64,000 bases of DNA from Streptomyces sp. NBC_01439 (GTDB lineage Bacteria > Actinomycetota > Actinomycetes > Streptomycetales > Streptomycetaceae): NCBI RefSeq assembly GCF_036227605.1, contig NZ_CP109487.1:3794001-3858000 (forward strand). The letters run 5' to 3'. How positions within the stretch are numbered: the first letter of the stretch is position 1; each line of letters begins with the position of its first letter. The notes under the pieces are model-generated. The model was not told the origin of the DNA. It saw only the letters and a program-made list of their open reading frames with translations, and did not search any database. Shown piece after piece: positions 51,618-55,413 of the stretch. Made by a program: the position numbers and the translations under genes.

Positions 51618-52565
51618 TCACACATCGATCTTCGACAGGCGGCGGATGAGGACGAAGCCCAGGGCGAAGAGGCCGAGGGCGATGAGCACGGCCGTCTGGC
51701 CGAGGAACGCGCCCGTCATCCGGTCGAGCGCGCCGGGCATCATCAGGTCGACCAGCAGCAGGGAGCCGAGGCCGATGGCGGGGACCAGGTACGCCGTCAC
51801 CGTGACTTGGGAGAGCTGGGTGCGGATCTCGCGCCGCGTCTCCTTGCGCTGCTCCAGCGTCACGGTGAGGTTGCGCAGGCTGTCCACGATCGCGCCGCCC
51901 GCGCGGGCCGACAGGACGAGGGTGGAGACGAGGACGACCAGTTCCCGGGACGGCAGGCGCTCGGTGAGTTCGCCGAGGGACTCATCGATCGAGTGGCCGA
52001 CGGCGAGGCGGTCGGCGACGCGCGCCAGTTCCTCGCCCGCCGGTGCCTCCAGTTCCTCGGCCGCGATGCCGATGGCCGTGCGCAGCGCCAGCCCGGCCTG
52101 GGTGGCGTTGGCCAGGATGCGGGCCAGGTCGGGGAGTTGGTTGATGAACCGTTCCGTACGCCGTGACCGCTGCCAGTTGAGGAAGGCGTTCGCCGCCCAG
52201 ATGCCGATGGCACCGGCCACCGGGCCGAAGAACGGCGCGAGGAGGGAGGACGCGATGAGCCACACCCCCGCGATCGAACCCAGCATGTAGACGAAGAACT
52301 CGCCGGGGGTGAGATCCAGTCCGGTGGTCGCCAGCTTCAGCTCGATGCGGCGGCCGAGCTTCGTCTGGCGCAGCCGCCGGTCGACGCCCCGGAAGCGGCG
52401 CCGCCGGCCCAGGGGCTCCGGCATGCCGCTCGCCGAGAGGCGCTCGATCAGGGCGGCGTGCTGGGCGCGCCCGGCGACGTACGCCTGGAGTCCGGCGACG
52501 ACGAGCACGCAGGCCAGCAGGGTAACGCCGAGGGTGAGGAGGATGAGTGGGTTCACTTGATTCAT
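51618..52565 (-). CDS. TadB-like inner membrane platform protein
   Basis: 315 residues, ATG 52565. One N-terminal membrane segment, a cytoplasmic region, two mid membrane segments and a T2SSF domain (LPDLARILANATQAGLALRT, VSTLVLSARAGGAIVDSLRN, ETRREIRTQLSQVTVTAYLV) are followed by two C-terminal segments. The ATG would overlap the stop of the uninterrupted tadA as ATGA. The inserted IS element now begins about 25 bases upstream on this strand and separates it from tadA. Confidence 0.9.
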   Translation of the reverse strand: MNQVNPLILLTLGVTLLACVLVVAGLQAYVAGRAQHAALIERLSASGMPEPLGRRRRFRGVDRRLRQTKLGRRIELKLATTGLDLTPGEFFVYMLGSIAGVWLIASSLLAPFFGPVAGAIGIWAANAFLNWQRSRRTERFINQLPDLARILANATQAGLALRTAIGIAAEELEAPAGEELARVADRLAVGHSIDESLGELTERLPSRELVVLVSTLVLSARAGGAIVDSLRNLTVTLEQRKETRREIRTQLSQVTVTAYLVPAIGLGSLLLVDLMMPGALDRMTGAFLGQTAVLIALGLFALGFVLIRRLSKIDV

Positions 52566-52646
52566 CCGAGGACGCCCCGGCCTTCGGTCAGGGAAGAAAT
52601 CCTGCTCTTGCGGAGCAGGGCAGGGAATGACGGATCGCCGTCAGGG

Positions 52647-52799
52647 CTATGCGTCGTCTGCCACGGGAGCGGCGCGCTCGGCCTCCAAGCGACACAGGAT
52701 CTCGGAGTTGAGGGACCGGCGGGCGGACTTGGCATGAGCAACCAGCCACGCGTGGAGATCTGCTGGGAGCCTGAGCGTGATGCGCACTTCATGGTCCAT
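52647..52799 (-). CDS. Arc-like ribbon-helix-helix protein carried by the IS element
   Basis: A 50-residue ORF (ATG 52799, stop 52647). The sequence DHEVRITLRLPADLHAWLVA then HAKSARRSLNSEILCRLEAE is the Arc/Mnt-type ribbon-helix-helix pattern, with a beta strand (VRITLRLP) and two helices; S-LNSEI is the conserved start of helix 2. It ends AAPVADDA. It is divergent from tnpB, 29 bases apart. TACAAT (52812-52807) lies seven bases before its ATG, suggesting a leaderless mRNA. It probably represses itself and tnpB. Confidence 0.8.
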   Translation of the reverse strand: MDHEVRITLRLPADLHAWLVAHAKSARRSLNSEILCRLEAERAAPVADDA

Positions 52800-52821
52800 G
52801 CTTCCAATTGTAGTGGCAGAA

Positions 52822-52840
52822 TGGTGTCATGACGACACCA
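52822..52840. promoter_or_regulatory. inverted repeat over the tnpB start codon
   Basis: TGGTGTC (52822-52828), a five-base spacer beginning with the tnpB ATG, then GACACCA (52834-52840); the arms are perfect. It lies between and over the divergent starts of the Arc-like and tnpB genes and is a plausible operator for the Arc-like protein. Confidence 0.6.
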
Positions 52841-54052
52841 CAGATGCCGGAGGAGGCCGGGTACGCCCGGTACACCTACCGCTTGCGCGTGTCGTCCACG
52901 GCGCTCGCCGCACTGCTGGGCGAGTGGGGCCGGTGCCGGTGGATCTGGAACGAGTGCGCGGCCCGGTCGATGAAGGCCCACAAGGGGGACGAGAAGTGCG
53001 GGCCTGCCCAGTTGGACAAGATGCTGACCGAAGCCCGCAGCCGAAACGCGTGGCTGCGTGAGGGCAGCTCGGTCCCGCAGCAGCAACTCATACGCGACTT
53101 CGGGAAGTCCCGCGCCAAGGCGCTCAAAGACATCAAGGCGCGGCTGCCGATGCGGCAGCGGGCCGGGCTGCCGAAATACAAGAAGAAGTCCAAGGCCGAC
53201 CCGACACTCAACTACACCCGACGCGGCTTCCGTCTCAGGGACGGAAAGCTTCATCTCGCTGGCGACCTCAGCCTGACGGTGGTGTGGTCGCGAGAACTCC
53301 CAGCGGAACCGTCCAGCGTGCGTATCTACCGCGACAGCCTCGGCCACTGGTACGCGTCGTTTGTCGTTCCCATCGAAACTCAGCCGCTCCCGGAGACGGG
53401 CGCGGTACTGGGGATCGATTGGGGCGTGAAGGAGACCGCTACCACTACCAGTGGCATTCACGACCTTCCCCATGCCGAGCACGGCAAGAAGGCGGCCACG
53501 AGGCTCGCGCACTATCAGCGGATAATGGCCCGCAGGCAGCCTGCAAGCGGCAAGGCCGCATCGAAGGGCTACCGTCGGGCGAGGAAGCTGACGGCCAAGC
53601 TGCACAAGAAGGTCGCGCGCCAGCGGCAGGACACGGGCCGCAAGTGGGCCAAGGCCGTTGTCCGCGACCACGACCAGATCGCGGTGGAGGACTTCCGGCC
53701 GAAGTTCCTCGCCAAGACCACCATGGCGCGTAAGGCCGCCGACGCTGCGATCTCCGCGACGAAGCGCGAGCTGGTCGCCATGGCGCGCAAACATCAGCGC
53801 ATCGTGCACCTTGTCCACCCCGCGCACACCACAATGGACTGTGCGCAGTGCGGAGCGAGAACCAAGCACGCACTACCTCTCTCAGAACGTACCTACGCCT
53901 GCACCGCCTGCGGAGCCGTATCCCCCAGGGACAAGAACTCCGCACACGTGATGCTGGTCCGGGCTGGTCTCAACCCGGCTGGTGCTGATCGTGTAAGACC
54001 TGCCGGACCGCCGGTCCGCAGGCGACGTGAGCCAGGAATCCCCTCCCTTTGA
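52829..54052 (+). CDS. tnpB: TnpB RNA-guided nuclease of the IS element
   Basis: 407 residues. The RuvC active site is complete: D197 (VLGIDWGVKE), E287 (IAVEDF) and D368 (SPRDKNSAH). The zinc ribbon has C338/C341 and C358/C361. An N-terminal domain with OrfB features (RCRWIWNECAARSMKAHKGD) precedes a basic middle region (RARKLTAKLHKKVARQRQDT). The whole length is normal, so it is likely active. The C-terminus runs into the right end of the element, where the guide RNA of such systems originates. Confidence 0.92.
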   Translation: MTTPQMPEEAGYARYTYRLRVSSTALAALLGEWGRCRWIWNECAARSMKAHKGDEKCGPAQLDKMLTEARSRNAWLREGSSVPQQQLIRDFGKSRAKALKDIKARLPMRQRAGLPKYKKKSKADPTLNYTRRGFRLRDGKLHLAGDLSLTVVWSRELPAEPSSVRIYRDSLGHWYASFVVPIETQPLPETGAVLGIDWGVKETATTTSGIHDLPHAEHGKKAATRLAHYQRIMARRQPASGKAASKGYRRARKLTAKLHKKVARQRQDTGRKWAKAVVRDHDQIAVEDFRPKFLAKTTMARKAADAAISATKRELVAMARKHQRIVHLVHPAHTTMDCAQCGARTKHALPLSERTYACTACGAVSPRDKNSAHVMLVRAGLNPAGADRVRPAGPPVRRRREPGIPSL

Positions 54053-54074
54053 GGGGCGGGGAGGATTCAAAGGG
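53930..54074 (+). ncRNA. putative omega RNA (reRNA) region at the right end of the IS element
   Basis: In characterised TnpB systems the guide scaffold comes from the 3' end of tnpB plus the right end, and the guide is the flanking DNA just beyond the end. Here this region contains the hairpin at 54040-54056, and the flanking sequence from 54071 on is tadA. Position alone supports this call; the 5' end is not defined. Confidence 0.35.
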
Positions 54075-55413
54075 CGGTCCGGGTGATGTGCGGGGTGGTC
54101 AGGGGGTCCTCCGGCGCGACGCCGAAGGCCTGCGGGACGGGCTGGTTGTTCATGTAGAGGCGTTCCGCGATCCGGCGGGGCAGCGGGTAGTACTCGAAGT
54201 AGCCGTGGACGCGCCCGTCCGCGCCCATCGGCTGGGCCCCGAAGCGGCAGACCGTGGTGATGCGGAAGGGTTCGCGGCCGTGCGATTCGAGGACGGAGAT
54301 CTCGGTGATGCGGCGCGAGCCGTCGCCGAAGCGGGTGAGCTGGACGATGACGTTCACCGCGCTGTTGATCTGGTCCTGCAGGGCCTCGAAGGGGATCTCG
54401 ACCTCCGACATGGAGGCGAGGGTCTGCAGGCGCATCAGGGCGTCCGAGGAACTGTTGGCGTGGACGGTGGCCAGGGAGCCGTCGTGGCCGGTGGACATCG
54501 CCTGGAGCATGTCGAGGGTCTCGCCGCCGCGGACCTCACCGACGATGATGCGGTCGGGGCGCATGCGCAGGGAGTTGCGTACGAGGTCGCGGATGGTGAT
54601 CTGGCCCTTGCCCTCGACGTTCGCGGGGCGGGATTCGAGGCGGATGACGTGGGCCTGCTGGAGCTGGAGTTCGGCCGAGTCCTCGATGGTGATGATGCGT
54701 TCGCCCTCCGGGATCAGCCCGGAGAGGGCGTTGAGGAGGGTGGTCTTGCCGGTGCCGGTGGCTCCGGAGACGATCACGTTCATCTTCGCCCCGACCAGGC
54801 CGGAGAGCAGTATCAGCATCTGCTCGTCGAGCGAGCCGAGGGCGATCATCTCGTGCAGGGTGAAGGCGCGCGGGAAGCGGCGGATGGTGAGGGTGGCGCC
54901 GGTCAGGGAGAGCGGCGGGATGATGACGTTGACGCGCTCGCCGCTGGGGAGGCGGGCGTCGACCATCGGATTGGCCTCGTCCACGCGGCGGTTGACGGTG
55001 GAGACGATGCGCTCGATGGTCTGCATCAGCTGCTCGTGCGAGGCGAAGCGGATGGGGAGCTGTTCGACCCGGCCGGCGCGCTCCACGTAGATGTGGTCGG
55101 GGCCGTTCACCATGATCTCCGAGATCGAGGCGTCTTCGAGGAGCGGTTCGAGCACGCCGAGCCCGAGGGCTTCGTCGACGACGCGACGGATCAGTTGGGC
55201 GCGCTCGACCGTGGAGAGGACGGGGCCCTCGCGGCTGATGATGTGGCCGAGCACGCGCTCCAGGCGCGCCCGGCGCTCGGCGGGCGCCAGCGCGGACATC
55301 TCGGCGAGGTCGATCTCCTCCAGCAGCTTGGCGCGGTAGGAGGAGACGAGCCGGCCGTCCTCGCGCGGGCTGTGGCGGTCGTCGGGGGTGTTGACCCGTG
55401 AACGCAGGCTCAT
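54067..55413 (-). CDS. tadA: TadA/CpaF secretion ATPase, C-terminus truncated by the IS element
   Basis: 448 residues. The N-terminal region (LGVLEPLLEDASISEIMVNG) leads to the type II/IV secretion ATPase core: Walker A SGATGTGKTT with K223, Asp box ITIEDSAELQLQ, Walker B IIVGEVRGGETLDMLQAM, His box STGHDGSLATVHANSSSDAL. It powers pilus extension in the cytosol. The start ATG overlaps the stop of the upstream TadE gene (ATGA). The natural reading would end TEGRGVLG, overlapping tadB; the IS element replaces these eight residues with an immediate TGA. The loss is small and the enzyme may still work. Confidence 0.94.
   Translation of the reverse strand: MSLRSRVNTPDDRHSPREDGRLVSSYRAKLLEEIDLAEMSALAPAERRARLERVLGHIISREGPVLSTVERAQLIRRVVDEALGLGVLEPLLEDASISEIMVNGPDHIYVERAGRVEQLPIRFASHEQLMQTIERIVSTVNRRVDEANPMVDARLPSGERVNVIIPPLSLTGATLTIRRFPRAFTLHEMIALGSLDEQMLILLSGLVGAKMNVIVSGATGTGKTTLLNALSGLIPEGERIITIEDSAELQLQQAHVIRLESRPANVEGKGQITIRDLVRNSLRMRPDRIIVGEVRGGETLDMLQAMSTGHDGSLATVHANSSSDALMRLQTLASMSEVEIPFEALQDQINSAVNVIVQLTRFGDGSRRITEISVLESHGREPFRITTVCRFGAQPMGADGRVHGYFEYYPLPRRIAERLYMNNQPVPQAFGVAPEDPLTTPHITRTAL

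Follow-up and report, generated by a model that had tools for sequence, protein, structure and literature searches.

Introduction

The closest described relatives of the element reported here are the insertion sequences of the IS1341 group of the IS200/IS605 family, which carry tnpB only. ISDra2 has tnpA and targets TTGAT. Guide-directed copying back into empty alleles belongs to the biology of IS605 elements, and TldR proteins are nuclease-dead TnpB regulators that have lost the RuvC catalytic residues. In PMC7290912, IS605 elements are described as inserting 3' of a tetra- or pentanucleotide, with a guide at the 5' base of a hairpin identifying the site, and the present element fits this rule. 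PMC4227781 treats the IStron, a group I intron combined with an IS605 or IS607 element; the likeness to the present case is that an insertion sequence is rendered harmless to the gene that it enters. IStrons splice out of RNA, whereas the ends described here preserve stop and start codons where two genes meet, and the present element has no Rfam match for an intron, or for an omega-RNA, at the gathering threshold. None of the literature titles and abstract openings screened deals with an element that enters at a start codon and supplies a Shine-Dalgarno (SD) sequence.

The element lies in a tad-type pilus operon within a 64,000-nucleotide stretch (the window) of the genome of Streptomyces sp. 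NBC_01439, a single contig of 9.58 Mb. We class it as an IS605/IS1341-type element without tnpA that has inserted on the 3' side of TCAC. With the IS1341 group it shares TnpB, a subterminal hairpin at the left end, a tetranucleotide target that is not duplicated on insertion and lies 5' of the element, and a presumed guide adjoining the right end. It and its relatives differ from that group in their target, which is the complement of GTGA, in the outward-facing SD that many left ends place at a host start codon, and in a divergently oriented Arc-type gene next to tnpB, which 46 of 100 related elements carry, every time in the same interval and on the same strand. The solved structures 8h1j and 8bf8, which we take to be TnpB of ISDra2, have sequences that place them in the same nuclease family (E about 8e-28); unlike ISDra2, the relatives here use TCAC and the window genome has no Y1 TnpA. 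It is argued below that an element with this target probably leaves both genes of the junction readable, and that the SD at the left edge of many such elements probably replaces a lost ribosome-binding site or translational coupling and has been kept by selection.

Insertion site and element boundaries

The operon is on the minus strand and comprises cpaB-like, CpaE-like and two TadE-like genes, tadA, tadB and tadC, with a plus-strand tnpB placed between tadA and tadB. The features of the locus, in window coordinates, are as follows.

51618..52556, minus strand: tadB (T2SSF, PF00482), 312 aa counted from the native GTG (52554-52556), which is also the start codon in relatives
52552..52556, plus strand: host target TTCAC, the complement of the tadB GTGAA start and the presumed TnpB TAM, from empty-site relatives
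52557..54070, plus strand: whole element, 1514 bp (TTGATTCATCC...GAGGATTCAA); left edge from empty sites and relatives' left ends, right edge from empty sites and relatives' ...TCAA end
52557..52622, plus strand: left end (LE) with subterminal hairpin (LE profile, 48.8 bits); inner limit arbitrary, window copy diverged
52563..52565, minus strand: ATG provided by the element, read from the sequence; it lies 9 nt ahead of the native GTG in the same frame, adding MNQ
52590..52593, plus strand: left AGGG, inside the LE on the hairpin 3' arm by left-end alignment position; not a junction
52647..52799, minus strand: 50-aa ribbon-helix-helix protein of the Arc type, encoded divergently from tnpB (Pfam Arc PF03869, 25.2 bits, cut-off 20.4)
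52829..54052, plus strand: tnpB, RNA-guided nuclease, 407 aa (NF040570, 234.5 bits, cut-off 100)
53981..54070, plus strand: right end and presumed omega-RNA scaffold, ending in a hairpin and TCAA; sequence conserved in relatives
54067..55413, minus strand: tadA (CpaF-type ATPase; T2SSE, PF00437), 448 aa, native length; relatives end at the same place
54071..54090, plus strand: presumed omega-RNA guide, the 3' end of tadA, by match to empty sites next to TTCAC

The six closest TadA relatives (L086-L091) are 93-98% identical, and in them the tadA TGA overlaps the tadB GTG within GTGAACC. Their TadA ends exactly in ITRTAL in three cases (L086-L088) and in TPRTVL, ISGTAL and TARTVL in the others. 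Read on the plus strand, with a hyphen at the insertion point, the empty site of the relatives is GGTTCAC-AGG(G/A)C (TTCAC-AGG in L086-L090), and the occupied junction in the window is GGTTCAC-TTGATTCATCC...GAGGATTCAA-AGGGC. The comparison of TTCAC-element-AGGG with TTCACAGGG in the relatives gives insertion 3' of a short target, TCAC, without target duplication. An IS607-type junction, with a GG core on both sides, was rejected because the empty sites give TCAC-TT and AA-AG. No tnpB is present at any of the 41 tad loci of relatives that were examined together with flanks of about 1.5 kb.

The initial annotation had proposed that an IS605-type element entered where tadA meets tadB, with tnpB opposing the operon, and this is upheld. 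It had also taken an AGGG repeat (52590-52593 and 54071-54074) as the element junction. Both copies are present, but the relatives' empty sites place the left boundary at 52556/52557 rather than 52593, with the left AGGG within the LE, and so rule the repeat out. The minus-strand frame thought to be restored by joining the two copies, running to TEGRGVLG and stopping in an ATGA that overlaps an ATG in the tadB frame, does exist, but it is not the empty site of the six relatives. The supposed loss of eight TadA residues falls with it, as TadA of the relatives ends in ITRTAL or nearly so and the extra residues are element DNA read by chance. The comparison also bears on the counter-case that ITRTAL is ancestral and the insert of about 1.5 kb shared by close relatives: TadA does end natively at or near ITRTAL, but the relatives are without the insert.

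On the tadA strand the first bases of the element are TTGA, which supply a TGA at the native stop position. The last base of the final codon and the stop are thus element sequence, and the codon, CTG before insertion, becomes CTT. Leu is encoded either way and the stop is restored in place, so TadA is unchanged.

Genomic context of related elements

Related loci were taken from a first genome collection (80 loci) and from further genomes. Of 215 loci read, 213 had a tnpB match and 159 a left-end match; 128 of the latter passed the score and TCAY filters, while 4 scored too low and 27 lacked a TCAY within 6 nt. These gave 106 sites distinct by left flank, 100 of them with both ends and enough flank. 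Left ends were located by profile and their edges by TCAC or TCAT, the two motifs to which the counts are confined. Strong left ends at L207, L148, L036 and L122 sit beside CCAC, not TCAC, which may mean that the target is less strict than the counts assume. A codon model trained on the window was applied to the minus-strand reading of each empty site, and the sites were compared by Fisher tests with control GTGA tetranucleotides in the same flanks.

The start of a coding open reading frame was found at 49 of 100 sites against 117 of 2097 controls, with GTG as the start codon in 46 and ATG in 3; start calls ranged from 46 to 53 of 100 across thresholds. In 33 sites (controls, 21 of 2097) the start overlapped a stop, the TGA of the same tetranucleotide. 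A further 15 had a stop only (controls, 35, or 56 of 2097 stops in all), 4 lay inside genes (controls, 1228 of 2097) and 32 were at neither a start, a stop nor a gene interior. Control GTGA sites of the window (n=438) comprised 27 starts, 1 start plus stop and 242 interior positions. Held-out sites (n=48) gave 19 starts, 11 overlaps and 4 interior sites, near-identical flanks having been removed, some held-out genomes also being in the discovery set, and the pattern having first been seen by eye on the discovery loci, on which the start caller was written before reuse with small changes.

The 49 start sites precede genes of 39 families, and 9 of 10 downstream proteins scanned match Pfam. Some junctions have been hit by differing elements, at an AIM24-like gene in six sites and at a carboxyl-transferase gene in four. 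The six AIM24-like sites (L012, L024, L046, L054, L192 and L206) show five different left-end-to-tnpB distances, suggesting repeated arrival or RNA-guided copying. The carboxyl-transferase gene (PF01039) starts with GTGA in 22 of 30 relatives inspected from 55 matched genomes, and tnpB was at that site in none of the 30.

At the other end of the element, the right edge carries TCAA in 196 of 213 elements, and the last codon is synonymous after insertion in 30 of 48 stop-overlap sites; since the right edge was located by TCAA, the restored TGA at these sites arises by construction.

A left-edge Shine-Dalgarno sequence

Read on the strand of the host gene, many left ends finish in GGAGGAACCCG, GGGAGAAATCCG or AAGGAGAACCG directly before GTGA, and 61 of 100 sites fall in these classes, in which the SD core is 5-8 nt from the host start. 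The SD criterion was first computed when every locus had already been collected. It finds an SD of 4 nt or more in 65 of 106 left ends and at 41 of the 49 start sites; the figures are 897 of 3144 for control GTGA sites and 580 of 2120 for shuffles. SD classes are at starts in 41 of 61 sites and the non-SD classes (GCAAGA or CTCCGG) in 4 of 30; nine left ends, that of the window included, belong to no class, and 4 of these are at starts. The corresponding values are 26 of 40 against 2 of 8 in the discovery sites alone (p 0.053) and 15 of 21 against 2 of 22 in the held-out sites, a split that is not blind because the classes were drawn after all 100 sites had been seen. Before insertion, 37 of the 49 start sites had an SD of their own upstream, so that the element displaces one there.

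Survivorship alone would explain these data differently: insertion would occur at any TCAC, sites inside genes would be purged, and the SD-like GGAGG would be a by-product of the DNA hairpin of the left end. The depletion of gene interiors agrees with this, as selection against disruption would by itself empty them. The left-end structure has two helices, with 94.2% of cells paired and covariation of 0.347 against 0.103 shuffled (32 relatives), and the GGA of the SD falls in the outer covarying helix, so that structure and SD are not independent. SD status also follows element lineage, with at least 16 changes on the TnpB tree, and independent pairs on that tree lean towards an association of SD with starts (of 9 pairs, on average 4.5 same and 0.3 opposite) but do not make it significant (median p 0.125). 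Against it, survivorship should leave stop-only sites more numerous than stop-start overlaps, as in the controls, and the reverse is seen. The SD is kept at 5-8 nt in three forms (GGAGG, AAGGA and xGGAGA) on left ends with different stems, and the classes that lack it are seldom at starts. Survivorship alone is accordingly considered rather unlikely.

Proposed mode of insertion

In the preferred reading, in which both junction genes stay readable and the SD is maintained, the element would work as follows. As TCAC is the complement of GTGA, the target coincides with GTG starts and TGA/GTG overlaps on the other strand. With TCAA at the right end, an upstream gene that formerly stopped in GTGA reads xxT TGA, with its stop in the same place, and the start codon of the downstream gene is preserved where it abuts the left edge. 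Roughly six in ten related elements also supply, from this edge, an SD 5-8 nt before the host start. Lying so near the edge, this SD could serve only a gene outside the element, from which we infer that it substitutes for the ribosome-binding site or coupling removed by the insertion and is maintained by selection. Judged from sequence, the SD would be used in translation and so rescue the host gene.

TCAC is presumably also the TAM. The guide of TnpB, being the 3' end of the upstream gene, would permit copying back into empty alleles, and such RNA-guided copying is presumed to spread the element. The chances are about even for the fuller proposal that a TnpB lineage targets the host start codon GTGA, read as TCAC, that its ends mend both genes, and that RNA-guided copying can carry it from one conserved operon junction to another with little burden on the host.

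If true, an insertion sequence with a four-base target could inhabit operons with little harm, the target, right end and left end jointly preserving the stop codon, the start codon and often the ribosome-binding site. This would be a counterpart at the DNA level to the self-splicing IStrons, with harmlessness coming from codon-exact ends, and would help to explain the persistence of tnpB-only elements in gene-dense genomes. Such insertions should then not be read as gene disruptions without comparison with an empty site.

Possible effect on tadB

The window copy departs from this pattern. The SD position of its left end reads GGATGAA, with no SD of at least 4 nt, and for this lack it is a less typical member of its group. 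Between tadA and tadB it instead offers an in-frame ATG, the left end placing ATGAATCAA in frame ahead of the tadB GTG, and TadB may begin with MNQVNP or from its native start. Of 106 left ends, 2 have an ATG in frame no more than 24 nt away. The element at L132 has stops in tnpB; it shares the GGATGAATCA left end with the window copy and offers the in-frame ATG.

The 20 nt preceding tadB contain no SD of at least 4 nt, whether in the rebuilt empty site, in the six relatives or with the element in place. Translation of native tadB therefore probably depends on coupling to tadA. The claim in the initial annotation that this coupling was destroyed holds in that the stop/start overlap has been removed, but the native overlap is GTGA, and the ATGA named there is made by the left end of the element.

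With TadA intact, the loss of coupling together with the 1.5 kb insert could lower the expression of tadB-tadC, a possibility compatible with the preferred explanation. The native overlap is gone and neither native tadB nor the window left end has an SD, so that tadB may be less translated in this strain; set against this, the GTG of tadB is intact, an in-frame ATG has been added, and tadB and tadC are still open. Lowered expression of tadB-tadC is regarded as distinctly doubtful.

The nuclease, the Arc-type protein and mobilisation

TnpB also matches OrfB_IS605 (62.4 bits, cut-off 30.5) and does not reach the narrower IS200_TnpB model NF038281 (143.2, cut-off 425). Aligned to 9yyg, a solved AI-designed TnpB-like nuclease, it conserves D, E and D, presumably the RuvC catalytic positions, and looks like an active nuclease. 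The presumed guide matches the empty sites at 19 of 20 positions in L086, L087 and L088, 16 in L089 and 14 in L090. Recruitment of TnpB as a TldR-like, RNA-guided regulator of the tad operon is very improbable, for although the presumed guide matches the 3' end of tadA, as it would for any IS605 element after insertion, the retained D, E and D reject a nuclease-dead protein and the element is absent at the tad locus in the 41 relatives. The right-end sequence (53981..54070) has its sole match in the genome here. A second relative of tnpB in the same genome (L164, G000:C1:5449181-5450200) covers residues 57-395 only.

The Arc-type protein would be expected to regulate a divergent promoter. Its gene is also present with all 11 CTCCGG-type left ends, just 1 of them located at a start, and hence does not go hand in hand with insertion at start codons.

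A Y1 TnpA encoded in this genome was rejected as the source of mobilisation in trans, as PF01797 had no match across the whole genome; the family is present in 32 of 121 genomes of the genus. Among ten TnpA loci compared, the left end is clearly similar in L268 (39.6 bits) and more weakly in L263 (23.2 bits), the others scoring at most 13.9. The left end in L268 that resembles that of the window sits 3' of tnpA, which has the position and orientation of the Arc-type gene in the window element. At the TnpA loci L259, L261, L262 and L264 the flanks, judged by eye, show a GTAG-like target.
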